Origin: a virus
DNA: 56,001 nucleotides
Virus record (IMG/VR): IMGVR_UViG_3300010375_000583
Span: 1 to 56,001 of that record
Strand: one strand, 5' to 3'
Both the position numbers and the translations under genes were made by a program. The notes under the pieces were generated by a model that saw only the letters and a list, made by a program, of their open reading frames with translations, made no database searches and was not told the DNA's origin. Numbering within the stretch: the first letter of the stretch is position 1; each line of letters begins with the position of its first letter. Of the stretch, positions 2,356-30,617 are shown in pieces.

Positions 2356-2377
2356 GGCAGTTCCTTTCGCGGTTGGA

Positions 2378-4603: not shown

Positions 4604-4664
4604 TTTTCCCTCTCGCGCACGCTTCGCCCTCCGCCGCAGCGGATGCGCCTCCGCGCCTCGTTGA

Positions 4665-8337: not shown

Positions 8338-8834
8338 AGCACGAAGTTCAGCACGTTGGTGTCGCTGTTGGCGAACACGGCAAGCCGATCGAAGAGACGG
8401 CGGGTCTGGTCGCCATAGATCTCGTACAGCTCGAGCAGCGTCGCGGCAGTCGCATCGTCGAACTGGTAGGCCTGGCTCTCCGCTTCGACGGTGAACGACA
8501 CCACCGCGAATCTCTTGTTGACCGCGGACACGCTGTACGTGCCCGGGACGATCGTCACCAGATGCGGCGACTGGCCGAACCCGCTGTCCAGCGGCATGTT
8601 GAAGGAGATCGCCCCCTTCTTGATCGCGTGCAGGAAAAAGACGTTCCAGACGCTGAACTTGTCGGGCGAGTCCAGGACGATCGTCACCTGAAACGGCTGC
8701 ACGCCACGATCCCAGTCGAGCGCAGTCCGCGATGCGCCGCCGGCAACGGCCGAGCGCATCACACCGTCCGGCGCGCCGAAGCCGTAGCCTGCGACCACCG
8801 GCTGCATGCCGCGCGGGATGTTCGGACTGCTCAT
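8334..8834 (-). CDS. Putative minor tail protein
   Basis: The protein has 166 aa and is mostly beta-strand in character (FQVTIVLDSPDKFSVWNVFFL, VVSFTVEAESQAYQF). It sits directly after the tape measure and overlaps it by four bases. In this gene order the protein corresponds to a lambda M-like or distal-tail position, so it probably joins the tape measure to the tip. No conserved motif was recognised with certainty. Confidence 0.65.
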   Translation of the reverse strand: MSSPNIPRGMQPVVAGYGFGAPDGVMRSAVAGGASRTALDWDRGVQPFQVTIVLDSPDKFSVWNVFFLHAIKKGAISFNMPLDSGFGQSPHLVTIVPGTYSVSAVNKRFAVVSFTVEAESQAYQFDDATAATLLELYEIYGDQTRRLFDRLAVFANSDTNVLNFVL

Positions 8835-11233
8835 GAGCGCTTGCGCTCCGCCTTGTAGCTACGCGAGTAGCCCTGGCTGATCTTGCTGTTGGGGTCGCTC
8901 AGGTCCGCAGCCACGGTTGCGCGCACCTCCTGAAGGATCAACACGCGGTCCGTCGCCGAGATGTGGCGCTCCTCGACCTTGTCGATGCGCCCCGAGGTCT
9001 GGTTGACGATCGTGTAGTTCGTCGGTCCGGTGCTGGTCGCCGCGACGCCCAGTTTGCCGTTGGCACCGCGGCGCAGCGGCATGATCGCCTCCGGCCCGGC
9101 CTCGCCCATGACGCCCGTGCCTTTCGCGAATTTGAAGAGCGTCGGGCTGTCGAAGATGTCACCCTTCGCGAACTTCGTGATGCCAGCTGCCGAGAACACG
9201 TTGCCCTTGGCTGACGGATATAGGCGGTCGATCGACTGCGACAGGCCGACCGTGCTCGAGCTGCCGCCGCCGAATAGGCCCGCGAACTTGCCGATCAGCG
9301 AAAGCCAACCGCCTCCCGAACTGCCGCCGGCCGCCTGGCCGAGCTGCTGCAATTGCGCCAGCAGCGGCCGCACGAAGTTGACCTTCGCCGCCTCGATCGC
9401 GATGGACTGGAAGAAGTTGGCCCAGCCTGCCTTGCCCGTCACGAAGAAGGTAGCGAGCTGATCTTCGAGGCCGTTCAGCTGGTTGCTGACCAGATCCTTC
9501 GTACTGGTGCCGACATCCTTCACGCGCTCCAGGTACTCGTCGAGCGCCTGCTTCGCGCCTGCCGCCGGGTCCTGTCGCAACTGCGCCTGCTTCTGCGCGG
9601 CCTGCTGGCGCAGGGCGAGCTCCTCGCGGAGCGCATCCGCGTTCAGCTTCATCTGATCGAGGTTGGTCGCGTTCGCGTCAAAGAGTTGGATCGTGGCGAT
9701 GCGTTGGTCTTCGAGTGCGATGCGCTCTGCCAGCCTTCGCTGGGTCAGCACCTCGAGCTGGTCACGCGTAAGGCCGATCTCGTCGATGCCGTCCTGCAAG
9801 GCCTTGTTCGACAGCTGGCGGCTCTCGGTGACGCCGGCCAGCTGGCGGGCCTCGGCCTGGATGGCCTTCATGCTCTCCTGCTGCGCCTCGGCGGCTTTGG
9901 CGGTGACCAAGTACTTTTCGAGCAGCGTGGCCACGCTGGACTTCTGCGCGTCGGTCAGCTTGATCTCGTTGCCGGCCAGCTTCGTGACCACGTCGAGGGC
10001 GAATTGCTGAGAGGCCGTGAGCTTCTCGCCGGTGTCGAGTTCAGCCTGCGACGCCGTGGTCTTTTCGGTGATCTTCGCGATGAGCTCATCGTAGAGCTTG
10101 GCGGCGCGGTCGACTGGCGCCTTCACATCCTTCGTCCTGTCGAGGATCGGCGCAGCAGCCTTCGGCGTGTCACCCGGGTTGATGTTGCCGCGCCCGAGGT
10201 TCCCTTGACCGGCCTGCTGGCTGCGAAGGAACGTCTCGCGCTTCTCGAGCAGCGCGATCTGGTCACGCAGCTTCTGCATGTTCCGCTCGCTGCCGATCGA
10301 GTTGAACTGGTCGATCAGGCTGCTGCTTTTCGACCTGGCCTCCATCTCGGCAAGGTCGTCGCGCGCCTTGCGGATCTGGCCAACGGTGGCCGTCAGGTTC
10401 TCGTCGAGCGACTTCAGAGGGTTGACGTTCAAGCCGATGTCGAGCGTCGCGCTCAGGAAGCTGCCGTATGCCTTTCTGCCCTCGATCAGCTGGTTCGTGA
10501 TGCTCACCAGCGCCGGCAGCAGACTGCCCACCAAGGAGACCTTGGCCGCCTCGCTGGCGAGTTCCAGACGCTTCAGGTTGTCGTTGAAGTCGCCTGCCGC
10601 CTTGGCGACATCGTTGCCGTAGACGGCGCCGAGCTTCTCCGCCTCGCTGCGCAGTTCGATGATTCCATCGCGACCCTTGTTCAAGAACGGCAGCATCTCC
10701 GCGCCAGTCTTGCCAAATGCTTTTTGCGCCAATGCCGCCTTCTCGGTGCCGTCTTTGTAGCCGGAGAATTTGTCGGCCAAGTCGAGCAGCACGTCATCGG
10801 CGCTGCGCAACTTGCCGTTGGCATCCGCGATGCTGACGCCCAGCGCCTTGAAGAGGGCAATCTGCTCCTTGTTGCCGCCAGCCGCCGCCGTCAGGTTCTT
10901 GCCGAGCTTACTGATCCCCGTGACCAGCGCGTCGGTACTCGTGCCGGCGACCTCGCTCGCGTAACTGTACGCACTCAGATCCTTGGCGGCGATGCCGAAC
11001 TTTTCGCTGAGATCATCCAGCTTGTCGAGCGTGTCGATCGCCGCCTTGGCGCTGTTGATCTGCGATGCGACGAAAGCCGCTATGCCCAGTCCGGCAATGC
11101 TCTTCTGGAGACCCGAGAAGACCTTGTCGATGCGTGCCGCCTGCTGCTCGGCGACCCGGGCGGACTTGTCCATGCCCTCTTCGAACCGCGCGAGATTCGC
11201 GACGAGGTCGATCGAGAGGGTTGCGAGGGCCAT
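8831..11233 (-). CDS. Tail tape measure protein
   Basis: The protein has 800 aa. The N-terminus begins with the tape-measure style LSIDLVANLARFEEGMDKS and a glycine/alanine-rich hydrophobic stretch (GLGIAAFVASQ). The middle is long and helical with many KAA, EAE and QQAAQKQAQ stretches. The C-terminus has the lambda H-like block FAKGTGVMGEAGPEAIMPL followed by NGKLGV. The protein sets tail length and is injected during infection. At the usual rule of about 0.15 nm per residue it predicts a tail near 120 nm, implying a long-tailed siphovirus. Confidence 0.92.
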   Translation of the reverse strand: MALATLSIDLVANLARFEEGMDKSARVAEQQAARIDKVFSGLQKSIAGLGIAAFVASQINSAKAAIDTLDKLDDLSEKFGIAAKDLSAYSYASEVAGTSTDALVTGISKLGKNLTAAAGGNKEQIALFKALGVSIADANGKLRSADDVLLDLADKFSGYKDGTEKAALAQKAFGKTGAEMLPFLNKGRDGIIELRSEAEKLGAVYGNDVAKAAGDFNDNLKRLELASEAAKVSLVGSLLPALVSITNQLIEGRKAYGSFLSATLDIGLNVNPLKSLDENLTATVGQIRKARDDLAEMEARSKSSSLIDQFNSIGSERNMQKLRDQIALLEKRETFLRSQQAGQGNLGRGNINPGDTPKAAAPILDRTKDVKAPVDRAAKLYDELIAKITEKTTASQAELDTGEKLTASQQFALDVVTKLAGNEIKLTDAQKSSVATLLEKYLVTAKAAEAQQESMKAIQAEARQLAGVTESRQLSNKALQDGIDEIGLTRDQLEVLTQRRLAERIALEDQRIATIQLFDANATNLDQMKLNADALREELALRQQAAQKQAQLRQDPAAGAKQALDEYLERVKDVGTSTKDLVSNQLNGLEDQLATFFVTGKAGWANFFQSIAIEAAKVNFVRPLLAQLQQLGQAAGGSSGGGWLSLIGKFAGLFGGGSSSTVGLSQSIDRLYPSAKGNVFSAAGITKFAKGDIFDSPTLFKFAKGTGVMGEAGPEAIMPLRRGANGKLGVAATSTGPTNYTIVNQTSGRIDKVEERHISATDRVLILQEVRATVAADLSDPNSKISQGYSRSYKAERKRS

Positions 11234-12920: not shown

Positions 12921-13408
12921 GGTTCTGCCTTCGGGGTGTTCAATCTCGCAATGGCCGGTCCCAGCGTCTTCTCGAACTTGCTGAGCGCCTCACCGGATTT
13001 CGAGGTCGCGGCGTTCCGCAGGAAGTGCGACGCCGGCGTGACCACGTGAAACGCGTTCTTTCGGGCGCCGAACTCCAGCCACCGCCAGTAGTACGGATCA
13101 GTCGGGCTCTTGGCGCCACGCGCCGCGCCTTTGGCCGGCCTGACATTGACGAAGACACCGATGTCGCCGGCGCGGCGCGCCACCTTGCTGTTGCGCACGC
13201 TGATGGCGTTGCGCACGGTACCGGCGCGCCTGAACTGGTTCGGTGTCTTCAGCATCGGTGCGCCGGCGCGCGCGGCGTCGCGGATGATCCGCGCCGCGGC
13301 CGCCAGGGCGTTGCGGACGGCGCGCTTGCGCAACTTCGGGCCGAGTTCCAGGAGCGCGGCCTTGAGCTCCTCGAGGCCGCGAATCTCCACGCTGAAATCA
13401 CCGGCCAT
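12917..13408 (-). CDS. HK97 gp10-like tail/neck protein
   Basis: The protein has 163 aa with the HK97-gp10 signature: VEIRGLEELKAALLELGPKL at the N-terminus followed by AVRNALAAAARIIRDAARAGAP, and YYWRWLEFGARK in the middle. The family links head completion with tail completion. It overlaps the head-tail adaptor gene by 11 bases and the DUF3168 gene by four. Confidence 0.87.
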   Translation of the reverse strand: MAGDFSVEIRGLEELKAALLELGPKLRKRAVRNALAAAARIIRDAARAGAPMLKTPNQFRRAGTVRNAISVRNSKVARRAGDIGVFVNVRPAKGAARGAKSPTDPYYWRWLEFGARKNAFHVVTPASHFLRNAATSKSGEALSKFEKTLGPAIARLNTPKAEP

Positions 13409-13757
13409 CGCGCTGCCCTTTCACCACCATCAGTTCGAGCGTGTGGCGGCCGCCGTCGACGTTGATCGGCTCGCCGACGATGTCGTAGGGCTCGCCCCGC
13501 CAGATCAATCGCATGGCCGCCCTGATATCCGCGCGCCAGTAGATGGAGACGCGCGCATCGAGCGTCTGTTGCGCCTGGCTGGCGGCGAAGAACTCGCGGG
13601 CGCGCAGCGGCTGCACCTTGGCCCACACTGTCGGCCGCACCGCGATGTTCGTCCAGGTCTTGACGCGTTCGCCCAGCGAGTTGTCGACCTCGCCGGCCGC
13701 TTGGAACGTCACGCGCTGATCCATCTCGCCGGCACTCAGGCGAGCCGTCTTTGGCAT
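13398..13757 (-). CDS. Head-tail adaptor (head closure) protein
   Basis: ATG 13757 gives a 119-aa protein (MPKTARLSAGEMDQRVTFQ). The LDQRV-like N-terminus, a VWAKVQPL stretch and a GEPYDIVGEP block near the C-terminus are typical of the phage head-tail joining family (SPP1 gp16-like). It closes the portal after packaging. Upstream lies the fibre/lectin cassette rather than the usual connector, so it is separated from its normal partner (19,997-20,599) by over 6 kb. Confidence 0.85.
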   Translation of the reverse strand: MPKTARLSAGEMDQRVTFQAAGEVDNSLGERVKTWTNIAVRPTVWAKVQPLRAREFFAASQAQQTLDARVSIYWRADIRAAMRLIWRGEPYDIVGEPINVDGGRHTLELMVVKGQRDGR

Positions 13758-13768
13758 CGTCGCGCTCC

Positions 13769-15520
13769 CTATTCGCCGCAGGCCGAGATCGGGTCGTAGA
13801 ACAACGCCGTGCCGGTCATCTGCGCGACATTCGCGAAGTCGTTGCCGGTGTTCGTCACGTTCGAGCATGCCGGCGTACCGCCGCCTATTTCCAACCCCGC
13901 TGCGGCGCCGGTGCCGGTGAAGTACCAGACCAACCCTCTGCCCTTGTTGTTGGTCAAGGTGATGTTCGTGCAGGTTCGGTTGTAGTAGTTGCGGTAGGTG
14001 AAGGCCGGCCCGGTGTTCGTGGTTGTGTCCTCACCGGCGTTGTCGACGAAGTTGCCGTCGACGATGTAGTCGTGGCCGCCAGAGATCGCGATGCCATGAC
14101 CATTGGTGCGGGCAATGCGATTGCCGCGAACATCGATCCAGCCGACATCGCCTGTTCCGTCGTAGTCGCCAAGCTGCAGGCCGGCGGCAGAGTTGCCGCC
14201 GTAGAAGGGGCCGATGATTCGGTTGTTCCAGATCTTGAGCGGTTTGTCCGGGCTGGCGATGATCGGGCCGGCGATATTGATCTTGTCTTCGATTGCACCG
14301 TCAGAAGTGCCGGTGTTCTCGGTCTGAGGCTTCGGGACACGCACCTGACCAACGGTGTAGCGACCGTGGTACTTGTTGCAGCTGATCGACGACTGATCGG
14401 TGTTCGACGTGATCGAAAGGACTTGGATGGCGTTGCCGCCCCACCTGGGACCGAGCACATTGAAGACGAAGTTCTTTTCGATCACCACCGCCTCGGCGCT
14501 CTGCACGTACATGCCCCACGAGCCGTCGTGAATGACGTTGCCGGTGATCGTCGTCACGCCCGTCGCGCCGTTGACGTAGATGGGCCGATCGTTGAGGCCG
14601 TTGTGATTGTCGTCACCGCTGGGGTCGATGACTGCCGGCGTGCTCGGGCCGATCTCGTTGTTCCGAATCGTTGGGTTGCTGATGCCGTTGGCCAAGATGC
14701 ATGCGCCACCACCGGCCGGGCACCTGATGCGCTTGTTCTCCAGCACCTGGTTGTCTGTCATGACGATCGGGCCCGTCACGTCGGTCATGTCGGTCCGCAT
14801 CGCCATCGATAGCGGGGTCGGGACGTCCGAGGCGCCGCGGGTCGACACCGTCGCCGGCGCGATGCCGGCCACTGTCCTGCCGGCGAACGAATGGCCGAGC
14901 GCGGCACGCGAAGTGTCGGAGGCCAGCGCGCAATATCCCCCCGACCGGAAAGCGTTGCAACTGAGCGCCGTTCCTGCGGCTACCGTGACCCCGGATACCC
15001 GCGCGCCCAAAGCACCCGACGTGATCGCGAACACCGGCACGGTGGTCGCTGTCGTCGATTGCGTCCTCGCGTACTCCAGATCCATCGACCATTCGACCGA
15101 CGGGTTGATGCACTCGACAACCGCGATTGCGGTCCCCGATGTCTGCAGGCCATTGCCCTGCACGCCCAGGCAAAGCGGCAGGCCGGCCGTCGAGAGGTCC
15201 GATTGAAATTGCCGCGTCGCGCTGCCAATGCTTGCCTTGTAGGCCGTCCAAAGCTGGCCAGCCGCCGTCGAGCAAGTCGCCAGCGAGACATCGGCATCGA
15301 CCGCGGCGCTGGACGCCTCCAGGCACTGGCTGCCGATCTTCAGCCGGTACTTGCCACCCGAGCGCGGGTCGAATATCACGTCCTGCGTGCTGCTCGCCGC
15401 ACAACCCACCTGCGTCATGGTCGACGCCATGCAGTAGCCGCTGTGGACGTTCTGCAGATGCGTCGCGCGCGCACCGAGCGCCGAAAGCGCCAGCAGCACC
15501 AGGATGAAGAGTTGTCGCAT
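13769..15520 (-). CDS. Secreted ricin-type lectin plus parallel beta-helix protein
   Basis: The protein has 583 aa from ATG 15520; a TTG six bases upstream overlaps the previous stop and is an alternative. Residues 1-19 (MRQLFILVLLALSALGARA) are a classic Sec signal peptide. Residues about 20-130 look like a ricin-B/beta-trefoil (HLQNVHSGYCMAST, GGKYRLKIGSQCLEA). Residues about 190-560 show PbH1-type repeats (RNNEIGP, TGNVIHDGSWGMYV, VRGNRIARTNGHGIAISGG, VDGNFVDNAGE) of a right-handed beta-helix. Several cysteines fit an extracytoplasmic protein. It lies in the late operon, so it could be a secreted glycan-binding or hydrolytic factor, or a spike with an unusual export route. Activity is not predictable by eye. 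Confidence 0.78.
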   Translation of the reverse strand: MRQLFILVLLALSALGARATHLQNVHSGYCMASTMTQVGCAASSTQDVIFDPRSGGKYRLKIGSQCLEASSAAVDADVSLATCSTAAGQLWTAYKASIGSATRQFQSDLSTAGLPLCLGVQGNGLQTSGTAIAVVECINPSVEWSMDLEYARTQSTTATTVPVFAITSGALGARVSGVTVAAGTALSCNAFRSGGYCALASDTSRAALGHSFAGRTVAGIAPATVSTRGASDVPTPLSMAMRTDMTDVTGPIVMTDNQVLENKRIRCPAGGGACILANGISNPTIRNNEIGPSTPAVIDPSGDDNHNGLNDRPIYVNGATGVTTITGNVIHDGSWGMYVQSAEAVVIEKNFVFNVLGPRWGGNAIQVLSITSNTDQSSISCNKYHGRYTVGQVRVPKPQTENTGTSDGAIEDKINIAGPIIASPDKPLKIWNNRIIGPFYGGNSAAGLQLGDYDGTGDVGWIDVRGNRIARTNGHGIAISGGHDYIVDGNFVDNAGEDTTTNTGPAFTYRNYYNRTCTNITLTNNKGRGLVWYFTGTGAAAGLEIGGGTPACSNVTNTGNDFANVAQMTGTALFYDPISACGE

Positions 15521-15522
15521 CG

Positions 15523-15837
15523 TCAAAGGACGGTGAAAGTGAGACTGCCGACGGCGTCCGCCCAGTCGACTCGGTACGCATTGATGTCGGACGGCAACGA
15601 GATGACGAAGCTCTCACCGACGGTGCCCGAGATATCGCCAATAGGGGTACCGTCGCTCGCATAGACGCGACCTGTCGCGCTCCCCGATGTCGCGAGAATC
15701 GTGAACGTCAGCGCAGCGCCGAATGTCGCCGTGATCGCGCCTGTCGTCGTGAGCAAATTGCTCAGCGTCCACACGCCCGCCGCGGGGGGCGTCGCGGTGG
15801 CACTGCGCGAGATGACAGCCAGGGCGGCAGGAGTCAT
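15523..15837 (-). CDS. Small beta-rich protein of the fibre cassette
   Basis: The protein has 104 aa, rich in Thr, Ala, Ser and Gly with alternating hydrophobic residues (LTFTILATSGSATGRVYA, GDISGTVGESFVISLP), suggesting a beta-sandwich. No family was recognised. It lies 6 bp after the SGNH tail protein and overlaps the putative TTG start of the lectin gene (TTGA). A fibre-tip or accessory adhesion domain is a reasonable inference. Confidence 0.6.
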   Translation of the reverse strand: MTPAALAVISRSATATPPAAGVWTLSNLLTTTGAITATFGAALTFTILATSGSATGRVYASDGTPIGDISGTVGESFVISLPSDINAYRVDWADAVGSLTFTVL

Positions 15838-15843
15838 TGCCGA

Positions 15844-17310
15844 TCAGGCGATGCGGACGATGCCGGCGCGACCGATCGCGATGCGAGCCGTGCCGGCGCC
15901 TGCGAAGCAGCCGCCGAAGTTGATGCGGAAGACCGTTGGGGTGCCGCTGCCGGGGATCACGATCGGCCGGCTCTTCGCGACGTAGGTGAACGACTCCGGA
16001 TAGGGGCCGTCCGTCGCCGTCGAGTACGCGTTTTCGTAGACGAAAAAGTTGGTCGTGCCGTCGTTGTATTGAAGGTAGAACTGCATGCCAGATAGGTTCG
16101 CGGCGGCGGTAAGCGCCGCACCGCCGGCGCCGGAGGCGTTCAATTCGGCAACGATGATGTACGTCCCACCCTGGACCGCGCTCGCATGCATGCTGGGGAA
16201 GCGCGCCTCGAAGCTGTCACCGGCGGCCGTCGCGGTGATCTCCATAATGAAGTCTTGGCCCTTGCCGTCGGCACGCGCCGCCACCGATGCAACCATGGTC
16301 GGCGTGCCGCCGCGGGCGAAGGTGATTGAGCCCGTCGGCATGTTCCCGGACACACCCGTGCCCGTGGCCGTCTGCGAGCCCGTCATCAGCGGGTTGACCA
16401 TCACCTGCGTGATGGCGCTGTCGTAGGCAATCGTCGCTGCGTTGCTGGCGGGCAAAAAGTCGATGGCCTTCGGCACGATGCTGTTGATCCACGCAGCCAC
16501 GGGCTTGGCTTCTACGTAACCGCCCACGTTGCCCTCGTGGACACCTGGCGAGTCGCGGAAATAGTTCGTCGTCGACTCGATGTTGCTCGATGTCGGGTTG
16601 AGCATCGGGTTGCAAAGCTCGATGAACTCCACGCCAGGCGTCGATGCGGCGTAGTTCCGAATCAACTTGTTCAGGTTGTCGAGTTCACGGCACTTGGCAA
16701 CCGTCGAAGCCGCGAATGCCGGGAATGGAATGGAGCACGCAACCGGCGTGATGCCAGCAGCCAGCGCGCGCTTGTACATGGTGATGAGCTTCGGCATCGT
16801 CACCGCGGCGGTGGCACCGTTCGTGATGATGTCGTTGAACCCTGAGTTGATGATGCAATACTTTGGCGCCAGCGGGATTACGCCCGGCGCAGTCGTCACG
16901 GCGCTCGACTGCGAGCCGATGCCGCCGAAGCCGGCGCCCGCGGTGGCGTTGCCGAACCGCGTCAACATGTCGTCCACGGCTTCCCCGTTGACACCCGCAT
17001 TGCCCACCAGCGTCAGCTTCTGGCGGGCCATGCCGTTCCCGAGCGTGAACCAACGCGGGCGGCCGGTTATGGCTGTCGTGCTCTGGTCGTAGCATTGCTG
17101 GGTCCGGCTGTCACCGATGATGACCGCCGTCGCGCAGGCAGCCGCATTGCGTGCTGACGCGTACGGCAACGCCGTCCATGTCGACGTGCCGTCACCGACC
17201 TTCGACAAGCCGGTGTCGATCTCCAGGGCCATCTCGCCTTGCGCGAGAACAGGATTCACGGATAGCCAAGTGGCAGCCGTGTCGTTTCTGAGTTGGATCT
17301 TCTGGACCAT
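15844..17310 (-). CDS. Tail-associated SGNH hydrolase with Mtd-like N-terminal anchor
   Basis: The protein has 488 aa. Residues 1-50 form an anchor resembling the major-tropism-determinant N-terminal domain (KIQLRNDTAATWLSVNPVLA, DTGLSKVGDGTSTW). An SGNH domain follows: block I VIIGDSRT near residue 64, an NSGFNDI block, and a His in GVHEGN near 270. The Asp usually three residues before that His is absent (an Asp occurs five before). Residues about 300-488 are beta-rich and may bind carbohydrate. SGNH enzymes deacylate sugars, so it may modify surface polysaccharide during adsorption. The anchor suggests it is virion-bound. Confidence 0.8.
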   Translation of the reverse strand: MVQKIQLRNDTAATWLSVNPVLAQGEMALEIDTGLSKVGDGTSTWTALPYASARNAAACATAVIIGDSRTQQCYDQSTTAITGRPRWFTLGNGMARQKLTLVGNAGVNGEAVDDMLTRFGNATAGAGFGGIGSQSSAVTTAPGVIPLAPKYCIINSGFNDIITNGATAAVTMPKLITMYKRALAAGITPVACSIPFPAFAASTVAKCRELDNLNKLIRNYAASTPGVEFIELCNPMLNPTSSNIESTTNYFRDSPGVHEGNVGGYVEAKPVAAWINSIVPKAIDFLPASNAATIAYDSAITQVMVNPLMTGSQTATGTGVSGNMPTGSITFARGGTPTMVASVAARADGKGQDFIMEITATAAGDSFEARFPSMHASAVQGGTYIIVAELNASGAGGAALTAAANLSGMQFYLQYNDGTTNFFVYENAYSTATDGPYPESFTYVAKSRPIVIPGSGTPTVFRINFGGCFAGAGTARIAIGRAGIVRIA

Positions 17311-18144
17311 TTAAGCGCCCCCGCCATTGATGTTCGTTGTGCCACCGTAAGAGCTGTTCGCCTTGCCGCCGTCGACTGCGCCGGCGCCAGCGCCGGCCGA
17401 GGCCGCTGACGTGTTGAACTGGTACTTGTTCGTCGTCGCGCTGAAGATCCACGTGACCAGGCCGGACGACGCACTTGTCACGCCGCCGTCGACCTGCGCG
17501 CCGCCTGGCATGCCGGCACCGGCAACCGAGGACACGGGGCCGCCGTTGACCTCACCGAGGATCTCCGAGTTGGTGGCCATGCCGGGCATCACGGTGACAG
17601 CGCAGCCGGCGACGTTGCTGAAGGACAGCTTGCGGTCAGTCGGCTTCAGCGTGTATGTCGTTCCCGGAACGTCGACCCAATTGGTCGCGTCCGAGTAGTT
17701 GTCGGTCAGTGGCCAGGTCGTGCCGTTGCTGGTGTAGACCAGCTTCTCGGCTCGGTTGATCGCGATGTTCCCGCTCAGCGCGGCGCCGGTGGGCGCGACG
17801 GTCGCAGCGGTCGCGGTGTTGGCGTCGGCACCCAGGATCTTTGCGAAGGACGACGTGATCGCGACCGTGCGCGCGTGGCTGTTGGCAGCCCTGGTCGCAT
17901 CAACGACGTCTGCCGCGAGGGACCAGATGCGTTCGCCCTCCTCGCCGAGAATCTTCCAGCGCTCGCCGTTGGGCAAGATGCCGATCGCATTGTTGGTGAT
18001 GCGCAGTCGTTCCGCCGCCACCCGCGCGTCATGCTCCGCACGACTGAGTTGCAGGACAACGCCCGCGGCTTGCTGAAGCGCTGCACGTTGGATGAGGCCG
18101 GTCCCGTCCTCGCCCTTCGTGAGAGATGATGCTATCCCGGTCAT
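17311..18144 (-). CDS. Fibre-cassette structural protein
   Basis: The protein has 277 aa. The N-terminal 120 residues are helical and charged (AEHDARVAAERLRITNNAI). The middle has a carbohydrate-protein-like block (NRAEKLVYTSNGTTWPLTDN), and the C-terminus is glycine/alanine/serine rich (SAGAGAGAVDGGKANSS). The stop adjoins the SGNH gene directly. A trimeric fibre segment is plausible, but no defined family was recognised. Confidence 0.6.
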   Translation of the reverse strand: MTGIASSLTKGEDGTGLIQRAALQQAAGVVLQLSRAEHDARVAAERLRITNNAIGILPNGERWKILGEEGERIWSLAADVVDATRAANSHARTVAITSSFAKILGADANTATAATVAPTGAALSGNIAINRAEKLVYTSNGTTWPLTDNYSDATNWVDVPGTTYTLKPTDRKLSFSNVAGCAVTVMPGMATNSEILGEVNGGPVSSVAGAGMPGGAQVDGGVTSASSGLVTWIFSATTNKYQFNTSAASAGAGAGAVDGGKANSSYGGTTNINGGGA

Positions 18145-18156
18145 GTTTCGCCCCGC

Positions 18157-19911
18157 TTAGGAAGTCGTGTAGCGGCCGGCAAAGGTCGCTGCCTTGCCAT
18201 TGCTGCGGTAGACGTGCCACGTCGTCCCCGAGGCCGCGTTCGTGTAGGTGTGCCGCACGGTGATAGGGCTGGCGGGATCCCCGTCCGGATTGATGCCCGC
18301 ATAAGTCGCACCAGAGAATCCACCGGTGCCCGCACCGTCGTTGACCACGAGGCCGCTGCTGTCCGCACCCGAGGGAATGAAAATCCACGTGTAATCGGTG
18401 GCACTCGGCGACGGGCTTTGGAAGGTCGTGAAGCTGCCAGCCTTGCCGCCGGCCGGCGCGCCACCGGCGCCGATCTGGCCGCCGCTCGCACCGGTGACGT
18501 CCATCGGGACGCGCGCGGCGAAGATCGTGTCGAAGGTGGCCGTCGTGCCGCTCGGATTCGCGATCCCGTAGCTGAACGCCGGCCGCGTGTCGGGTGGCGG
18601 CGCGGCCGTGACGGCGTCGTTGAGCAGACCCGGAGTACCTGATCCGGCCGAGTTGACCGGCGTGATCTGATAGTCGTAGGCCGTGCTTGCGGCCAGTCCG
18701 GTGACAGTCGACGCCGTGCCGGTCACGCCAGTCGCGAACGTCGTGTAGGCGCCTGTCGAGCTGCCGAGGCGGTAGCCGACGGTGTAGGTGATGGGCGTCG
18801 TGCCGGTGGTCGGCGCCGTCCAGGTCAAGGGCTGCGTGCTGCTCGTCGCCGTGCCGGGCGTCACGCCGGTGACTGCGCCCGGCGCCACTGCCGCCGCGCT
18901 CACCGTGAGCGTTGCCGCATTGCTGGTGACCGAGCCGGCGGGGTTCGTGACGACGCAGCGGTAGGCGTCGCCGTTGTTCGCGGCGCCACCGGTCACCGCA
19001 GTCGCGGGCGTCGTGTAGCTTGCGGCAGTCGCGCCGCCGATGTTCGTGCCGTTGCGCTGCCACTGGTAGGTCAGCGTGCCGCCGCCAGTGGTCGCCGCCA
19101 CCGTGAAGGTAGCTGTCGCCGGCTCGGTAACCGTGGCCGCGGCAGGCTGGCTGGTGATCGTCGGCGCCACGACACCCGAGGTGACCGTCAGCGTGGCGGC
19201 GTTGCTTGTCACGCTGCCCGCCGAGTTCGTGACCACGCAGCGATAAGAGGAGCCGGTGTCGCCGGTCGTGGTGGCGGGCGTCGTGTAGTTGTTCGAATTC
19301 GCTCCGGAGACGTTGCTGAAGCCGCCGCCCGTGTCCCGCTGCCATTGGTAGCTCAGCGTCCCGCCGCCCGTCGTCGCGGAGACCGTGAAGGTTGCCGTGT
19401 TGGGAGCGACGACAGAAGCGGATGCCGGCTGAGACGTGATCGTCGGAGCCACCACGCTCGAGCCGGACGTGATGACGATCGCCGCGAGCGCCAGGTTCGC
19501 GGAGGCGCCGAGTGCATCGACGACATGCAGCACGACACCTGTGTACGTGGCCGGCGAGCCGACCAGCATGCCGCTGACCATGCCGGTCGCCGCATTGACG
19601 ATGCTCGTGCCTTCGGGCAGCGCGGCGCCGGTGCTGGTGACCGTGTATGGGCCGGTGCCGCCGGCGATGGTCGGCGTGAACGACCAAGTGGAGCCGATCG
19701 TGCCACCTGACGGCGTGCCGGTGATGGTCAGCGTCACGACATCCGATGTCGGCACGCGTACATAGCCCAGCGCGTTCCACGGCGTGCTGCCGTCGCCGAA
19801 CTTCAGATACCGCGTGTCGACCTCGATCGCGAGTTCGCCGTCACCGAGCACTGGATTCACCGACGCCCATACGGCGGCGAGATCGCGCCGGGTCTGGATC
19901 TTGTTGGCCAT
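18157..19911 (-). CDS. Multidomain Ig/fibronectin-type III fibre protein with Mtd-like anchor
   Basis: ATG 19911 gives 584 aa. Residues 1-52 repeat the anchor of the SGNH protein (KIQTRRDLAAVWASVNPVLG, YLKFGDGSTPWNALGY). A He_PIG-like Ig domain follows (about 55-150), then two tandem Ig repeats of about 90 aa (each APTITSQPA ... YQWQR ... YRCVVTN.AGSVTSNAATLTV). A fibronectin-III-like domain comes next (PGAVTGVTPGTA, YTVGYRLGS), then a C-terminal domain ending in WHVYRSNGKAATFAGRYTTS. Ig and FN3 domains on tailed phages usually promote weak surface adhesion. Confidence 0.8.
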   Translation of the reverse strand: MANKIQTRRDLAAVWASVNPVLGDGELAIEVDTRYLKFGDGSTPWNALGYVRVPTSDVVTLTITGTPSGGTIGSTWSFTPTIAGGTGPYTVTSTGAALPEGTSIVNAATGMVSGMLVGSPATYTGVVLHVVDALGASANLALAAIVITSGSSVVAPTITSQPASASVVAPNTATFTVSATTGGGTLSYQWQRDTGGGFSNVSGANSNNYTTPATTTGDTGSSYRCVVTNSAGSVTSNAATLTVTSGVVAPTITSQPAAATVTEPATATFTVAATTGGGTLTYQWQRNGTNIGGATAASYTTPATAVTGGAANNGDAYRCVVTNPAGSVTSNAATLTVSAAAVAPGAVTGVTPGTATSSTQPLTWTAPTTGTTPITYTVGYRLGSSTGAYTTFATGVTGTASTVTGLAASTAYDYQITPVNSAGSGTPGLLNDAVTAAPPPDTRPAFSYGIANPSGTTATFDTIFAARVPMDVTGASGGQIGAGGAPAGGKAGSFTTFQSPSPSATDYTWIFIPSGADSSGLVVNDGAGTGGFSGATYAGINPDGDPASPITVRHTYTNAASGTTWHVYRSNGKAATFAGRYTTS

Positions 19912-19996
19912 GAGATGCCTTTGGTTGATGAGGCAATGCCGCGGCTCCGGCTGTGCCGGCGCGGCGGTCAGGAGAAGCGCGTTTGCGTGGTGCCCG

Positions 19997-20599
19997 TCAG
20001 GCGAAGCCGAGGCGGGTCTTGATCGGATAGAGCTGGGCGCTGGCGCCGAGCGGGACTGACTGCATCGTCTCGACGGTCGTGTCTTCGCGATTGCGGTAAC
20101 GGTGCGCGATGACGAGCAACATCGCGGCGACGATCGAATTCGGCAATGGCTTTGTCTGGTCGTCATCGTTGACGGCCGAGTAGCCGAGCGTGTAGCGAAT
20201 GACCACAGCGCTCGGCGAAATGCTGGTCGCCGGCCATGAATGACTTGGCGCCAGGCGAAGCAAAGCCGGCGTCGGGTTGTCGTCGACTGCGTAAGTGCCC
20301 GCGTCCAGCGTCTGCTGCACGCCATCCTGGTCGAGATACTTCACGGAGTCGACGCCGAACAGCGGGCCGCTCTCCAGTTCGATGTCTCCGGACGGGAACG
20401 CAGGGAGCGCCGTCTCGACGACTACCTTCGCCACGCGGTGGCCGAGCATGGTCTCGGCATACTCGCGCGCATCGCCGATGTAGATCTTCAACAGCGGATC
20501 GTCTGGATGGCTGGGCGGATCGCCCTCTGCATCCAGCTTGCACTGCAGGCGCGCCAGCGCGAGAGACACCGGCTCGACGGGTGCCGTGATGATGTTCAA
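19997..20599 (-). CDS. gp6-like head-tail connector protein
   Basis: The protein has 200 aa with the HK97 gp6/DUF-connector pattern: SLALARLQCKLDAEGD at the N-terminus, LLKIYIGDAREYAETMLGH, and LPNSIVAAMLLVIAHRYRNRE near residue 160. These proteins attach to the portal and form the neck. The start overlaps the collagen-like gene stop by four bases. The next connector gene lies beyond the 6-kb fibre cassette. Confidence 0.85.
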   Translation of the reverse strand: MNIITAPVEPVSLALARLQCKLDAEGDPPSHPDDPLLKIYIGDAREYAETMLGHRVAKVVVETALPAFPSGDIELESGPLFGVDSVKYLDQDGVQQTLDAGTYAVDDNPTPALLRLAPSHSWPATSISPSAVVIRYTLGYSAVNDDDQTKPLPNSIVAAMLLVIAHRYRNREDTTVETMQSVPLGASAQLYPIKTRLGFA

Positions 20600-21468
20600 T
20601 GCGTTGCCCTCGCGTCCGCGCCGCGTTCGCCTTTGGCTCCCGGCAAGCCATCCTTTCCATCGCGGCCGCGCTTCGCCGCGAGGCGCCAGGCCTTGCTGCC
20701 TTCGCCGGGCTTCTCGGTCGTGGGGTCATCGCAATGCCAGAGCGAGCCGCCCCACGTAGTCGTGTCGCCGCGGTCATACTGCTGGCCGTCGACGAACACG
20801 CCCCGGTAGACCATCACGGGAAGCCGGAACGACTTGGCCTCGCCTCGCCCGAACGCCGTGATGCCGCGCATCGAGAAGACTCTGGCATCGGAGGCGCTCT
20901 GCACGACTTCGATGTCGACAACGGGATCGATGAGGATCTGCCAGCCGGCGTCGGCGACGTTGCCGGTGATGGGGTCGGTCTTGCGGGCCGCGCGGATCAG
21001 GCCGCCGCGATGCCGCGCGTAGGTACCGCGCGCATAACCGCGCTGCTCGTCGATCGAGTCGAGCACCTCGATGTGCAGCGCGTCGCGACCAGGTGGTCCC
21101 TCTTTTCCGTCGCGGCCGTCGCGGCCAGCTTCACCTGGCGCGCCGGGGAAGCCGTCGTCGCCCTGCGGACCGGACTCTCCATCCTTACCGGGTGCTCCGT
21201 CTTTGCCGTCGACTCCATCGCTACCACGCTCGCCGGCCGGTCCTTGCAGGCCCTGCTCGCCGCGATCGCCCTTCTCACCCTCCTGGCCACGCTCGCCGGC
21301 GCGACCATCATCGCCGCGATCGCCCTTCTCGCCCGCGGCCGGCATCGGCATCGACTTCAGCTGCTCTTCGAGCGGCTTGATGGCTGCCTGCACGTGCTTG
21401 GCCAACTGCTCATCGCAGTAGGCCTTCACGGATGCGAACACGGCTTCGGCGAGGGCGTCAATGTCCAT
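20596..21468 (-). CDS. Collagen-like structural protein B
   Basis: ATG 21468 gives 290 aa; a GTG nine bases upstream that overlaps the preceding stop is an alternative. A helical N-terminal region (ALAEAVFASVKAYCDEQLA) precedes about 25 Gly-X-Y triplets (GEKGDRGDDGRAGERGQEG), then a globular region with a WHCDD motif and a second short collagen-like tail (GRDGKDGLPGAKGERG). The central fold resembles carbohydrate-binding modules seen after collagen repeats in phage fibre proteins (GVFVDGQQYDRGDTTTWGG). Location beside the portal suggests a head or neck fibre. Confidence 0.8.
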   Translation of the reverse strand: MDIDALAEAVFASVKAYCDEQLAKHVQAAIKPLEEQLKSMPMPAAGEKGDRGDDGRAGERGQEGEKGDRGEQGLQGPAGERGSDGVDGKDGAPGKDGESGPQGDDGFPGAPGEAGRDGRDGKEGPPGRDALHIEVLDSIDEQRGYARGTYARHRGGLIRAARKTDPITGNVADAGWQILIDPVVDIEVVQSASDARVFSMRGITAFGRGEAKSFRLPVMVYRGVFVDGQQYDRGDTTTWGGSLWHCDDPTTEKPGEGSKAWRLAAKRGRDGKDGLPGAKGERGADARATH

Positions 21469-21473
21469 GGGAT

Positions 21474-22160
21474 TCACGCCGACCGTCCCCCGTTGAAAGT
21501 CCTGGCCGCGTACACCGTCGCGGCACCACCGCCGCCAACGCCGATGACGCCAGTGAAGTCCGTTGCCGCGAACTGGCCGTCCAGATTGGTGTCTTCGTCG
21601 AAGGCGCCCCCACCGTCGAGCTTGATATTTCGGGTCGAGCCACCACCGCTGCTCGTGCCGTTGGCGCCGCGCTGACCTTGCAGGTCGATCCAAGGTCCCC
21701 AGCTGCCGTCGTCCTGCTCGAAGCGGATGGATGTGCCCCGCCATTCGTGACGCGGTGGCGGCCCGGCTTCGCCGCGCTCACCGTGCGAGCCATCGATACC
21801 GTTCGTGCCATCGCGGCCGCGGTCACCTTTCGGACCCTGCTGCCCGTCCTGGCCCTGCTGGCCACGCTCGCCGTCCTTGCCGTCACGGCCATCGCGGCCA
21901 TCGCGCCCGGCCGGCCCTTGACTCCCGTCGCGGCCATCCTTGCCGTCGGCACCGTCTTTGCCGTCCTTGCCATCGCGACCTGCGTCACCGGTTGCACCGC
22001 GCTCGCCCTGGAATCCGCGCTCACCGCGCGCGCCGTCGGTGCCGTCCGCCCCGTTGGTGCCGTCACGGCCATCCCGGCCGTCCTTCGCGTGCGGCGCCGA
22101 GTTGAGCCGCGACTCGACCGAAATCAAGCGCTCGAGCAGCGCCTTGACTTCAGGCAGCAT
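21474..22160 (-). CDS. Collagen-like structural protein A
   Basis: The protein has 228 aa. A short helical start (LPEVKALLERLISVESRL) precedes about 35 Gly-X-Y triplets dominated by GRDG, GKDG and GERG. A W-rich stretch follows (HEWRGTSIRFEQDDGSWGPW), then glycine-rich repeats. Phage collagen-like repeats form trimeric rods on heads, necks or tail fibres. It overlaps the portal C-terminus by 11 bases and precedes collagen-like protein B, making a tandem pair. Confidence 0.8.
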   Translation of the reverse strand: MLPEVKALLERLISVESRLNSAPHAKDGRDGRDGTNGADGTDGARGERGFQGERGATGDAGRDGKDGKDGADGKDGRDGSQGPAGRDGRDGRDGKDGERGQQGQDGQQGPKGDRGRDGTNGIDGSHGERGEAGPPPRHEWRGTSIRFEQDDGSWGPWIDLQGQRGANGTSSGGGSTRNIKLDGGGAFDEDTNLDGQFAATDFTGVIGVGGGGAATVYAARTFNGGRSA

Positions 22161-23889
22161 CGCGGACTCCCGAGAACTTGCGCATCAGCGCTTCGGCCAT
22201 GGCCTTCGATGCCTCGAACGCCTCCGCCTGCCGGCGCTGCTCGTCATCGACAAGCGCCTGGGCGTCGCGCGCCTCGGCTTCCAGCTGCTGGCGGGCGTCG
22301 GCCTGCTTCTGCAGTTCAGCGAGCTGCGCGAGTGCGACGGCCAACGCGTCCGCCTGCCGTTGAGCCGCGTCTTCCGCGGCGCGACGAACCGACTCGAGCT
22401 CGGCTCGCGCAGCTTCTCGGTCGCCGGCCAACTTCTCGGCGATCGCCGTCAGGATGTGTTCGCCGAAGGTGCGCAGTTGCTCGGAAGCCTCGGCCTTTTG
22501 CGCGTTCTGCGCGTCTGCAGTCTTCGCGTGGCTCGCGTCGAGCACGCGGAGCGCAACCTCCTCGACGGCTTTGGCGGCGTCCGCAGCAGGATCTGCAGGA
22601 GGATCCGCCGGATCGGCCGCAGCAGGCGCGGGCGCGGCGGTATCCGGAGCCGGCCGATCGTTCAGCGCCTCGAGAGAGTAGTTCTGCTGCTGCATGTAGA
22701 TCGTGTCGCCGCCGTCGACCGGCGGCAGGTTCATGACCTTGCGCGCCTCGTTCGTCTTCATCACGCTGCCGCCGACAGCCGCGGCGAGCGCTTCGATCTG
22801 CGTCTTCGCATCCATCCGCAGCAAGCCGGTCAGGTCGAGCTCGACGCCCAGGGTGCGGCCGTCCTTCGGCGACCCCAGCAGGCCAAGGCCATCGTCGAGC
22901 GACTCTTCCATGTGCTCGATGTGCGTCTGCAGGCACTGGCTGTAGTAGAGGCCGGCGCGGGTCTCGCCGTTGCCGTACGTCGGTTCTTTGCCGAGGCCGA
23001 TCATGAAAGCCGGCACGTGGAACGTCGAGCAGATCACCTGCGCCGACAGATCGAGCTGTTCGGTGAGCTGGGACTCGACGGCCGTCATGCGCATGCGCTC
23101 GAACTTCAGGCCGTCGCCCAGCACGGCGACGCGGCCCGCATTCGTGCCGCTGTAGTTCTTCTCCCAGTGATCCTTCATGCGCTTCGCGTTGTCGTCGCTG
23201 ATCGTGCCGGGCGCCGTGAGCACGCCGCCCGGGCTGCTGCTGTTTGCAAAGAACCGGCTGGAGTCGTTCTGCATGCGCAGACCCTGCTCTGCCGTGGCAC
23301 CCGACGCGTAGATCGGCGGGATGCCGACGAGCGGATGGAACAGGCAGTTCATGCGATCGTGGATGACCTCGCTGGCCGGCACGACGATGCTAGCGGCATC
23401 GATGCCCGCCAGGTTGTCCTCGCGCAGCTCGTAGTAGACGGCGCCGTCCGGCGCCACCAGCGGCGTCACGCACAGCCAATTCAGGATGTACAGCGCCACG
23501 ACGACGCCGCGGGCATCGCGCTCCTTGAGGGCGACGGTATTGCCGTGCAGCAGCTTGGACGTCGTCCAGCACTCCTTGAACTGGATATGGTTCTGGAAGC
23601 GGTTTGGCTTGCGCAGCACCGGCGAGAAGGCCGGACTCGTCGTCTCCGTCCAGATGCCGTCGGCGGACAGCTCCACCAGCTTCGGCCGCAGCTTCCCGAT
23701 GTCGGAGGCGATCAGCGTCACGCATGCGAAGAACGCGTTGTTGCGGAGGATCGATTCGACAGGCTTCGGGCTGTCGGCCTGCCAGGCCTCTGGCGACCAG
23801 GCGAAGGACGACACTGGAAACCAGCCGCCCCCACCACCGATCGGCAAAGGCCTGGCGGCCTTCTGTTTGCGCTCGCGCCGCTTGCTCAT
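22150..23889 (-). CDS. HK97-family portal protein with C-terminal coiled-coil extension
   Basis: The protein has 579 aa. Residues about 40-420 carry the portal fold (NNAFFACVTLIASDIGKL, FHVPAFMIGLGKEPTYGNGE). About 150 residues after 430 are alanine/glutamate-rich and heptad-like (AAARAELESVRRAAEDAAQ, LAELQKQADARQQLE). This is longer than the usual 400-450-aa HK97 portal. The start is ATG 23889, overlapping the stop of the 92-aa gene (GTG 23892 possible). The portal gene comes after the capsid here rather than before the protease. Confidence 0.92.
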   Translation of the reverse strand: MSKRRERKQKAARPLPIGGGGGWFPVSSFAWSPEAWQADSPKPVESILRNNAFFACVTLIASDIGKLRPKLVELSADGIWTETTSPAFSPVLRKPNRFQNHIQFKECWTTSKLLHGNTVALKERDARGVVVALYILNWLCVTPLVAPDGAVYYELREDNLAGIDAASIVVPASEVIHDRMNCLFHPLVGIPPIYASGATAEQGLRMQNDSSRFFANSSSPGGVLTAPGTISDDNAKRMKDHWEKNYSGTNAGRVAVLGDGLKFERMRMTAVESQLTEQLDLSAQVICSTFHVPAFMIGLGKEPTYGNGETRAGLYYSQCLQTHIEHMEESLDDGLGLLGSPKDGRTLGVELDLTGLLRMDAKTQIEALAAAVGGSVMKTNEARKVMNLPPVDGGDTIYMQQQNYSLEALNDRPAPDTAAPAPAAADPADPPADPAADAAKAVEEVALRVLDASHAKTADAQNAQKAEASEQLRTFGEHILTAIAEKLAGDREAARAELESVRRAAEDAAQRQADALAVALAQLAELQKQADARQQLEAEARDAQALVDDEQRRQAEAFEASKAMAEALMRKFSGVRDAA

Positions 23890-24167
23890 CACTCGGCCTT
23901 CAGGTCGCGCCGCTTGTACGTGCGCTTCGCCTTGGCTTCCGGGCTTTCGTCTGGCGGCGCTGCAGCTTCTTCGCTCTCCGCCTGGCCGATCGGCGCGGCA
24001 GGCGGCGCCGGAGCCGCAGGCGCAGCAGTCGCCGCGGCAGGCTGGTCCGACGCCTTGCCGATCGCTACCAGCACGCGCGCGTGCTTGTGTGATGCGTCGA
24101 AAGGGTCGCCGGGCTTCAGCGATTTGCCGCCGAAGGACATGGCCTTGTTCGCAATCAGTTTGCGCAT
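23889..24167 (-). CDS. Small protein between capsid and portal
   Basis: The protein has 92 aa: MRKLIANKAMSFGGKSLKPG at the N-terminus, followed by a flexible Ala/Pro-rich region (APAAPAPPAAP) and a basic tail (KAKRTYKRRDLKAE). The flexible tail and position next to the capsid fit a head accessory or packaging-associated protein. No named family was recognised. Confidence 0.6.
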   Translation of the reverse strand: MRKLIANKAMSFGGKSLKPGDPFDASHKHARVLVAIGKASDQPAAATAAPAAPAPPAAPIGQAESEEAAAPPDESPEAKAKRTYKRRDLKAE

Positions 24168-24217
24168 GGGTTCTCCAGATGGTGGCCCGGGCCGCTCGGA
24201 CCCGGGCCTTGCCCTGG

Positions 24218-25585
24218 TTAGGCGTAGGCAGCGCCAGTGATCAACGACACCGCCGAGGCGCGGCGCTTCGCGAAGTTGATGCGCCGCACCACCTTGATCG
24301 CCGTCGATTCGCTCTGGAACATCGACGTGAATGCCTGCGATGCGGCGACCGGCGTATCGGTGGCGCCAGTCGGCACGGTGCTTTGCTCGATCATCGTTTC
24401 GCGCGACACCGACACTTCGACCCCGGTATCCCCGATGCGATAGATATCGCTGGGCTTCAGCAGGATCAGCTGGCCGGCCGTCACGTTCTCGCCGGTCACG
24501 GCCGGATCGCCGAACAAGTCGCCGCCGGTGGCCTTCAGGCCCGTGAACTCGGTTTGGCCGAGCGCATTGACCATCAGCGAGATCGACTTCGCCAACGATG
24601 GGTTCAGAACCAGCATCAGGTCGGTGGCGTTCTTGGCGGCGATGAAGGGCGCGTACAGCGCCTTGTTGTCGACGCGCATGGCATCGGAATCGGTACCGGA
24701 CGCCGTGACACCCGTGACGCCGTTCAGAATGCCGGCGGGTGCGACCCCGGCGACGGCCGCGGCTGCCGACAGGAAGGTGAGGTCGATACGCTGCGACGAC
24801 GCCTGCACCAGAGCATCGCGGACCATCATCTCGGCATCCGGCGACGAATCCTTGATCAGCTCGTTCGAGATCACGGCCAGCGCTGCAACCTTCAGCGGCA
24901 AGAGGTTGACGTCCATGAAGTCGGCGGTGGTCGCCGGGATCGCCTTCGACTCGCCGACCCAGTAGCCGGTTGCCGCGCCGTCCTGGCCTTTGATGGTGAT
25001 GTTCGCCGGCACTCGACGCAGCGGCAGCTGATCGTAGATCGTGCGCGAGTACAGGTACTCGATGAAGTCGGCGGTGTACAGCGCGTTGGTGGTGACCAGT
25101 TCGTGGCCCCACTCGGCGGCGCCGGTGCCGCCGCCGGCCACCTCGTTGGCCTTGATGATGCTGACGAGGGTCGGGTTTGACTTGCCCCAGCGCGCCACGG
25201 CGACGTTGATCGGGCTGGTGTCATCCAGGCGAGCCACAGCCTTCGCGATGATCTGGCGCACGAAGTTCTGGCCTTTGAACTTCTCGGCAGCGTCGCCGCT
25301 GCGCATGACGATCGTCGGGCCGCCACGCGAGGCGGCGCCGCGGTCGGCGTTCGTGCCGTCGACGCCTTTGGCGCGTTCGATGTTGCGGCGCTCCATATTC
25401 TTCAGGCGTACCAAGTCGGCATCAATTTGCTTCAGCTCGAGCTCGATCTCGTCGACCTCGTCGCCCTCTTCCGTGTTCGTTGAGCGACCTTCCTCGATGG
25501 ATTTGCTCATGATGGTGTCCTGGCGCGCCACCTTGGCGGCGCGAGTGTTTTCCAGGTCGGCGATCTGTTCGGTGATGGTCTTCAT
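24218..25585 (-). CDS. HK97-fold major capsid protein
   Basis: The protein has 455 aa. The first ~110 residues form a charged helical delta-like scaffolding domain (EEGDEVDEIELELKQIDADL), which the prohead protease would remove. The rest is the HK97 fold: TLVSIIKANEVAGGGTGAAE, NITIKGQDGAATGYWVGESK, AVISNELIKDSSPDAEMMVR, and an E-loop/P-domain region. The start overlaps the protease stop by four bases, so both are co-translated. Confidence 0.95.
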   Translation of the reverse strand: MKTITEQIADLENTRAAKVARQDTIMSKSIEEGRSTNTEEGDEVDEIELELKQIDADLVRLKNMERRNIERAKGVDGTNADRGAASRGGPTIVMRSGDAAEKFKGQNFVRQIIAKAVARLDDTSPINVAVARWGKSNPTLVSIIKANEVAGGGTGAAEWGHELVTTNALYTADFIEYLYSRTIYDQLPLRRVPANITIKGQDGAATGYWVGESKAIPATTADFMDVNLLPLKVAALAVISNELIKDSSPDAEMMVRDALVQASSQRIDLTFLSAAAAVAGVAPAGILNGVTGVTASGTDSDAMRVDNKALYAPFIAAKNATDLMLVLNPSLAKSISLMVNALGQTEFTGLKATGGDLFGDPAVTGENVTAGQLILLKPSDIYRIGDTGVEVSVSRETMIEQSTVPTGATDTPVAASQAFTSMFQSESTAIKVVRRINFAKRRASAVSLITGAAYA

Positions 25586-27939: not shown

Positions 27940-28394
27940 TGCAACGGCACTCCGGGCAGAAGCCCTTCCCACCCGGTGCCGACCTGAGCCGTCGTCGCGT
28001 CGATCGCCGCCTGCTCTTTCTTGCCCACGGCGGCCAACGGTTGCGGCGCTGGCGCGACTTTCGGCTGTGGTGCAGGCGTCGACACCGGCGCGCCGCTCGC
28101 GGCCCCCAGCGGCTCGAATTCCGGCGGCGTCGCCGTGTAGGCCTTCGCCGCGCTCACGTTGCCGCGCTTGGCCGCAGCGTGCAGGCCCTGCAGCGCCTCC
28201 ATGCGCCGCTGGTAGGCCACCACCGACAGCTCTCGCTCGAAGTGCTTGCGTAGCGTTGGCGTCGTGATGCCCAGCGCCAGCGCGATGTGCTCATGCGGCA
28301 TGCCGGCGCCGGCGGCGATCGATACCTGGCGACGCACCGCGGCCGTGGGCTTGTATGCGGGTCGGCCGGGCGGGTTCCCAGTTCTTTTCGACAT
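27936..28394 (-). CDS. Terminase small subunit
   Basis: ATG 28394 gives 152 aa (the codon before it is TTG). The N-terminal half has a helix-turn-helix (EHIALALGITTPTLRKHFER) preceded by a basic GRPAYKP segment. The C-terminal half is Ala/Pro-rich (APVSTPAPQPKVAPAPQP), typical of the oligomerisation/large-subunit contact region. It recognises the packaging start on DNA. Its stop overlaps the large terminase start. Confidence 0.87.
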   Translation of the reverse strand: MSKRTGNPPGRPAYKPTAAVRRQVSIAAGAGMPHEHIALALGITTPTLRKHFERELSVVAYQRRMEALQGLHAAAKRGNVSAAKAYTATPPEFEPLGAASGAPVSTPAPQPKVAPAPQPLAAVGKKEQAAIDATTAQVGTGWEGLLPGVPLQ

Positions 28395-28816: not shown

Positions 28817-28840
28817 GGGTGCAGGTGCAGGAGCAGTTGC

Positions 28841-29278: not shown

Positions 29279-29307
29279 GATGGGGAATCTCCTGCTGCAG
29301 AAGCGCC

Positions 29308-29341
29308 GAAGCCCGCCGCGGCATTGACCTCGGCGGGCTTC
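29308..29341. repeat. Perfect 11-bp inverted repeat upstream of the late operon
   Basis: GAAGCCCGCCG (29308-29318) and CGGCGGGCTTC (29331-29341) are perfect complements separated by 12 bases. No T run follows on either strand, so it is not a typical intrinsic terminator. It sits between the Q-like gene and the first late gene, where a late promoter and its early pause or terminator (pR'/tR'-like) would be expected. Confidence 0.6.
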
Positions 29342-29411
29342 CTGTGGACGGGACGAATACCAGAGTGCCTGAACTGTGCATTGAATCTATAACGCGTGAA
29401 ACCGGGCCAGA

Positions 29412-30612: not shown

Positions 30613-30617
30613 CGGCT

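Follow-up and report, generated by a model that had tools for sequence, protein, structure and literature searches.

Gene content and borders of the island

The window analyzed here is a stretch of 56,001 bases and consists of a single IMG/VR virus record (IMGVR_UViG_3300010375_000583). Between the gene of a gp6-like head-tail adaptor (gp6 or Ad1, positions 19997–20599) and that of the head-closure protein Hc1 (13398–13757) it contains a cassette of five genes. This arrangement had been reported in a first-pass annotation of the window, and all five open reading frames as well as both flanking genes were confirmed. All of these genes are encoded on the minus strand. The five reading frames occupy the 6239 bp that separate the stop codon of gp6 from the start codon of Hc1.

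Both border genes are full length, so that the island sits at a gene boundary. The right border, gp6, matches the family Phage_connect_1 (31.9 bits, cutoff 21.2) as well as phrog_442 (7e-20) and phrog_40, and its C-terminus aligns with that of a relative (L082). The left border, Hc1, matches Phage_HCP (1.6e-24) and phrog_25 (2.6e-22) and has its own GGGAG ribosome-binding site. Both junctions recur in independently assembled IMG/VR fragments, which makes a chimeric assembly unlikely. The right junction is crossed by L002 (3300009093_000761), which is 100% identical over positions 19767–25226. The left junction is crossed by L085 (3300009545_000292), which is 100% identical over positions 12972–17331. 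We therefore rejected an assembly artefact.

The first gene after gp6 (18157–19911) encodes a fibre, referred to as IgF, with an N-terminal Mtd_N anchor (2.6e-10), two Ig domains (Ig_3, 7.6e-12; I-set) and an FN3-like domain, for which the fn3 match falls just under the cutoff. IgF also matches the tail protein family phrog_3995 (1.1e-37). It is followed by a 277-residue protein (17311–18144). This protein had also been labeled a fibre, a label without backing from homology, since no Pfam, PHROGs or tblastn match was obtained. The third gene (15844–17310) combines another Mtd_N anchor (1.1e-11) with an SGNH/GDSL hydrolase domain (Lipase_GDSL_2, 9.4e-11) and is a putative polysaccharide esterase or deacetylase fibre. 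The two Mtd_N domains clear the curated cutoff of 26.3 bits (44.9 bits for IgF, 40.5 bits for the hydrolase) and are 58% identical over about 50 residues. Their presence on both proteins implies two fibres with the same kind of mounting. In the hydrolase, block I (GDS) is found at residues 66–68 and block III (GFND) at residues 157–160. Block V (DxxH) reads RDSPGVH with the histidine at position 258 and aligns to RD--GVH of 4iyj and 9hi5 with a two-residue insertion. Enzymatic activity is predicted from these motifs and is likely. The only full matches to IgF or the SGNH protein in the viral scans were the window phage's own fragments.

The remaining two genes encode a protein of 104 residues (15523–15837) and a putatively secreted lectin/β-helix protein (13769–15520). 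The latter has a signal-peptide-like N-terminus followed by Ricin-B-like (Ricin_B_lectin, 8.7e-6) and right-handed β-helix (Beta_helix, 1.6e-5) regions. Its start codon is most likely ATG at 15520 rather than TTG at 15526. A comparison with PDB sequences gave no match, and no homologue was found in the 768 bacterial genomes and the phage collection scanned.

The gaps from gp6 through the five genes to Hc1 measure 85, 12, 0, 6, ~2 and 11 bp, and the cassette is thus packed like one operon. Simple sigma-70 and terminator patterns detected no promoter-like or terminator-like site within the cassette on its coding strand. The guanine-plus-cytosine (GC) content of 0.64–0.69 and the codon use resemble those of the rest of the phage; there is no compositional sign of foreignness. 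By these criteria the cassette does not look like a classical moron, which would have its own promoter and terminator as well as a deviating composition. We also rejected insertion by a homing endonuclease or transposon, for which the five genes yielded no endonuclease or transposase match in Pfam and the borders no convincing repeats. The Mtd_N domains suggested a diversity-generating retroelement of the BPP-1 type. This candidate was discarded as well: no reverse-transcriptase (RT) motif was seen in an RT context, and, apart from the Ig repeats, the region contains no long repeat pairs of the template/variable type.

The gp6–Hc1 junction in related phages

To collect relatives, the portal was used to search IMG/VR as well as 84,980 genomes of bacteria and archaea. 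This yielded 248 loci, 178 of them with both gp6 and Hc1; dereplication at 95% portal identity left 147. The two genes are usually adjacent, as the first-pass annotation had assumed: they are less than 150 bp apart in 128 of the 178 loci and in 101 of the 147 dereplicated ones. Distances of at least 600 bp occur in 23 dereplicated loci and distances above 4 kb in three, namely the window, L186 (6.2 kb) and L172 (4.2 kb). In the nearest relatives the junction is empty. In L176, which the portal tree places as the sister of the window (support 0.995), the gap is 3 bp, and in L082, the relative with the greatest similarity over the head genes, gp6 and Hc1 overlap by 4 bp. The two genes likewise abut in L086, the closest relative by Hc1, and in L087. 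Cargo presence at this junction requires at least 15 parsimony changes on a portal tree of 145 phages, which indicates that cargo comes and goes. No cassette like that of the window was found at the junction in the other dereplicated relatives. Judged by the sequences compared, the gp6–Hc1 junction is a recurrent cargo site, empty in close relatives and occupied by other cargo elsewhere. This agrees with the proposed insertion of variable cargo between two conserved genes; the same five genes are not common to all close relatives.

The cargo between gp6 and Hc1 in L186, L172, L187, L124 and other relatives consists of MptE-like proteins of PHROG 4603 (annotated alpha-2,3-sialyltransferase), glycosyltransferases and methyltransferases. 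Similar enzyme cargo occupies the next junction, Hc1–gp10, in about a quarter of the relatives (34 of 128). Extra genes at any of the three junctions portal–gp6, gp6–Hc1 and Hc1–gp10 were counted in 62 of 128 relatives, a number somewhat inflated by a few distant members in which the portal gene precedes the capsid gene. Within this clade the site can hence not be called unusual, as had been suggested, and named phages provide further precedents (see below). Fibre-like cargo in the connector block is rarer than enzyme cargo. L118 has a collagen protein there, L083 one of PKD/Ig type, and L078 a fusion of sialyltransferase, collagen and PKD parts.

The L078 fusion (8679–10574 of that locus; also in L040 and L043) lies directly after Hc1 and is an enzyme-fibre fusion of 631 residues, with a sialyltransferase-like part, collagen repeats, a PKD domain and a C-terminus matching the virion-structural PHROG 10356. 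In L176 a glycosyltransferase/methyltransferase cassette (positions 1856–6360; sialyltransferase-like, methyltransferase and other genes) follows a collagen-like gene and precedes gp6, which puts it upstream of the window's island by one junction. Large portal–gp6 islands are present in L149 (6.6 kb), L161 (4.5 kb) and L164 (8.7 kb).

One cargo gene has a close homologue in other phages. The lectin of L279 and L278 is 80% identical in DNA and 82% in protein sequence to that of the window, and the DNA similarity is limited to window positions 13773–15470. In L279 the lectin gene is flanked on one side by a gene for a 369-residue protein and on the other by small genes leading to a phage lysozyme. 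The C-terminal domain of the 369-residue protein, encoded upstream of the lectin, resembles the 104-residue protein of the window (44% over 54 residues, 2e-16, phmmer). The 25.9-kb L279 contig revealed none of the window's head or tail genes. The comparison is direct sequence evidence of exchange: the lectin gene has passed from phage to phage and changed its place in the genome. The first 19 residues of the two lectins are nearly unalike; both have the character of a signal peptide and stop at the same position ahead of THLQN. That this character was kept despite the divergence supports export as a selected property. L279 and L282 also have an early-region gene in common with the window (phrog_2045; window 53048–54118, noted under window positions 52348–54108; about 59% protein identity).

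Late operon and possible roles of the cassette

By its gene content the window phage is a temperate tailed phage of a siphophage clade with an HK97-type portal. An integrase gene (54727–56001) and a repressor-like gene (40526–41125) mark the temperate lifestyle. Around the latter and a divergent gene for a 346-residue protein (phrog_2384), the GC content drops to 0.55–0.60 (40526–43000), compared with about 0.66 elsewhere. On the minus strand, the terminase gene (26245–27972) opens the late region. It is followed by the genes for protease, capsid and portal, two collagen-like genes and gp6; beyond the cassette come Hc1, gp10, the terminator and the tail tube, and the region closes with the tape measure, tail tip and lysis genes. 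The first collagen-like gene follows the portal gene (21474–22160; Collagen, 2.6e-18). The second, between portal and gp6 (20596–21369; Collagen, 2.8e-17), has a conserved C-terminal domain (phrog_1289, 2.6e-53) and an uncertain start, its reading frame being open from 21744; homologues occur in many relatives and as gp07 of Pseudomonas phage PAJU2. Within the collagen-like pair (20596–22160), the C-terminal domain of one protein, common to the same phages, is matched by the PHROG 1289 and 2271 "portal" profiles and, judged by eye, looks like a carbohydrate-binding module. A candidate distal spike or fibre is encoded on the minus strand at the usual spot between tail tip and lysis genes (2378–4726, internal start assumed), after a phrog_469 tail protein and with weak matches to phrog_14251 and phrog_13362.

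Based on these observations we consider it probable that temperate siphophages of this clade repeatedly take up cargo at the gp6–Hc1 junction, within the late virion operon, and that in the window this site holds proteins that engage host surface glycans. We infer the following course of events. Late transcription would pass from the portal and collagen-like genes through gp6, the cassette and Hc1 into the tail genes. IgF and the SGNH hydrolase would be mounted at the same kind of virion position via their common N-terminal Mtd_N domain, and the fibres would bind (Ig/FN3) and deacylate (SGNH) surface polysaccharide. The lectin/β-helix protein may leave the cell via the Sec pathway or at lysis and then bind or cut extracellular polysaccharide. 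Cassettes could come and go through illegitimate or short-homology recombination at gene boundaries, because, as we propose, a densely packed operon tolerates changes made cleanly between genes.

Some observations weigh against this interpretation. The signal-peptide-like N-terminus of the lectin suggests that it is probably exported and not part of the virion. Its Pfam scores lie below the curated cutoffs (Ricin_B_lectin 26.4 vs 29 bits, Beta_helix 25 vs 25.9 bits), and the AlphaFold model of the lectins is unreliable (predicted local distance difference test score of 33). The SGNH protein has two extra residues between the aspartate and histidine of block V, and two of the five proteins (17311–18144 and 15523–15837) are without an assigned function. 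Finally, no near-identical genome with a different cassette was found, so that exchange at the exact junction is read across distant relatives. Of the exchangeability proposed in the first-pass annotation, the movement of at least one cargo gene, the lectin, stands. The description as a cargo or receptor-binding island fits in its first term; the second is conjectural. The lectin is probably exported, and the phage has a separate candidate spike at the usual tail end, so that the cassette is probably extra equipment.

Alternatively, the Mtd_N fibres and the collagen-like proteins might form a second adsorption apparatus on the head-tail joint or the capsid instead of the tail tip. The location of the cassette among portal, adaptor and closure genes and the collagen-like gene between portal and gp6, present also in relatives and PAJU2, would fit such a mounting, as would the matches of Hoc-like and head-protein PHROGs to the Ig part of IgF. 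In addition, PHROG 10356 aligns with Hc1 across its first ~105 positions and, further along, with a LamG-like fibre domain, suggestive of Hc1-fibre fusions, and a PHROG 10356 fibre domain is encoded directly upstream of Hc1 in cyanophage KBS-S-2A. However, such a fusion was met directly in no sequence examined, and gene order is no proof of assembly order. The Mtd_N proteins of relatives L229 and L230 and of Arthrobacter phages are encoded in the tail region or at the tail end, and the Ig-like domain of the R4C adaptor is regarded by its authors as structural rather than adsorptive (PMC10276861). Overall, we regard a neck or head apparatus as unlikely.

The cassette might also act on the host cell, by surface modification, superinfection exclusion or release from polysaccharide at lysis, and use the late operon merely for expression. 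This would be consistent with the signal-peptide-like N-terminus kept in both diverged lectins, with the phage lysozyme beside the L279 lectin and with the presence of enzymes rather than structural proteins at equivalent sites in relatives. It is at odds with the Mtd_N domain of IgF and the SGNH protein, which is a fibre-anchoring domain, with the fact that Ig/FN3 fibres are typically virion proteins, and with the phage-like composition and missing regulatory signals of the cassette. Such non-virion cargo appears quite improbable to us. An ordinary difference in gene order, with fibre genes that were always here in this lineage, would agree with the phage-like GC content and codon use and with the lack of variation in the two identical fragments, but is already disfavored and very improbable in view of the abutting genes in L176, L086, L082 and L087, the foreign relatedness of the lectin and the absence of a similar cassette at this junction elsewhere.

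The recurrent cargo site that we favor could, more speculatively, be an exchange site between two strategies. The connector block would provide either a glycan-dressed virion (sialyltransferase-like, glycosyltransferase and methyltransferase genes) or a second, enzyme-bearing fibre set near the neck, together with an exported lectin whose gene shifts between the connector block and the lysis region. We offer this as a tentative and rather unlikely idea. If the cargo-site interpretation itself is right, the short stretch from portal to tail terminator would be a predictable place for phage genes facing the host surface, beyond the tail end. Phages with related head and neck machinery and with empty, glycan-modifying or fibre/hydrolase cargo would form a natural comparison set with which to ask if fibres can be mounted close to the neck, and if a glycosylated virion and glycan-binding fibres are alternative solutions.

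Comparison with known systems

The observation made in the first-pass annotation is confirmed and its interpretation supported in part; clear precedents exist. A search of the literature on neck fibres with collagen or Ig domains and on interrupted connector genes returned nothing specific. In mycobacteriophages of clusters J and O, blocks of glycosyltransferase and methyltransferase genes interrupt the virion genes (PMC3706429, PMC4351075). As in the phages studied here, variable cargo lies among capsid, portal and connector genes and differs between related phages. Unlike the fibres, SGNH hydrolase and exported lectin between adaptor and head closure in the window, this cargo modifies sugars or methyl groups and sits either where capsid genes meet connector genes or between the portal and protease genes.

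Cyanophage KBS-S-2A (NC_020854) has Ad1 and Hc1 split by about 4.6 kb with seven genes, including fibre-like and LamG-like proteins, one of them in PHROG 10356 ("virion structural protein"). Both labels come from our inspection of the sequences and from PHROG 10356, with no match in Pfam. In contrast to the window, there is an HNH-type endonuclease gene and no Mtd_N domain, SGNH hydrolase or signal-peptide lectin, and homology to the window cassette is not detectable. The island (27069–31606), which contains a duplicated gene pair (gp50/gp51, 46% identical) besides the endonuclease gene, had gone unremarked. Pseudomonas phage PAJU2 (NC_011373) resembles the window in its portal (43%), in the collagen-like gene between portal and Ad1 and in carrying cargo in the connector block. 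Its Ad1, however, adjoins Hc1, and sialyltransferase-like and methyltransferase genes come after Hc1.

Individual cassette proteins also have counterparts. Arthrobacter phages (Popper gp30 and others) encode Mtd_N-esterase minor tail proteins, annotated as esterases, with an Mtd_N domain about 56% identical to that of the window; they are encoded at the tail end near the lysis genes, and only the N-terminal 50 residues align. SGNH-type genes within the head module are known from Gordonia phage Ranch (gp5 lipase, between portal and protease; a homologue of the window protein, 26%, 4e-17) and Rhizobium phage RHph_X2_26 (between capsid and portal). Both are found at other junctions than in the window and have no detected Mtd_N domain, and the Rhizobium protein is without detectable homology to that of the window. 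In cyanophage P-SS2, mass spectrometry identified virion proteins encoded by fibre genes that precede the tape-measure gene (PMC2784084), an analogy that may serve as precedent only for a virion role of the window fibres. The island does not seem to be a novel type of system; it has the look of a place where surface-interaction genes are carried as cargo. Cargo that interrupts connector genes is known already; new here is cargo of fibres, a hydrolase and an exported lectin at such a site.

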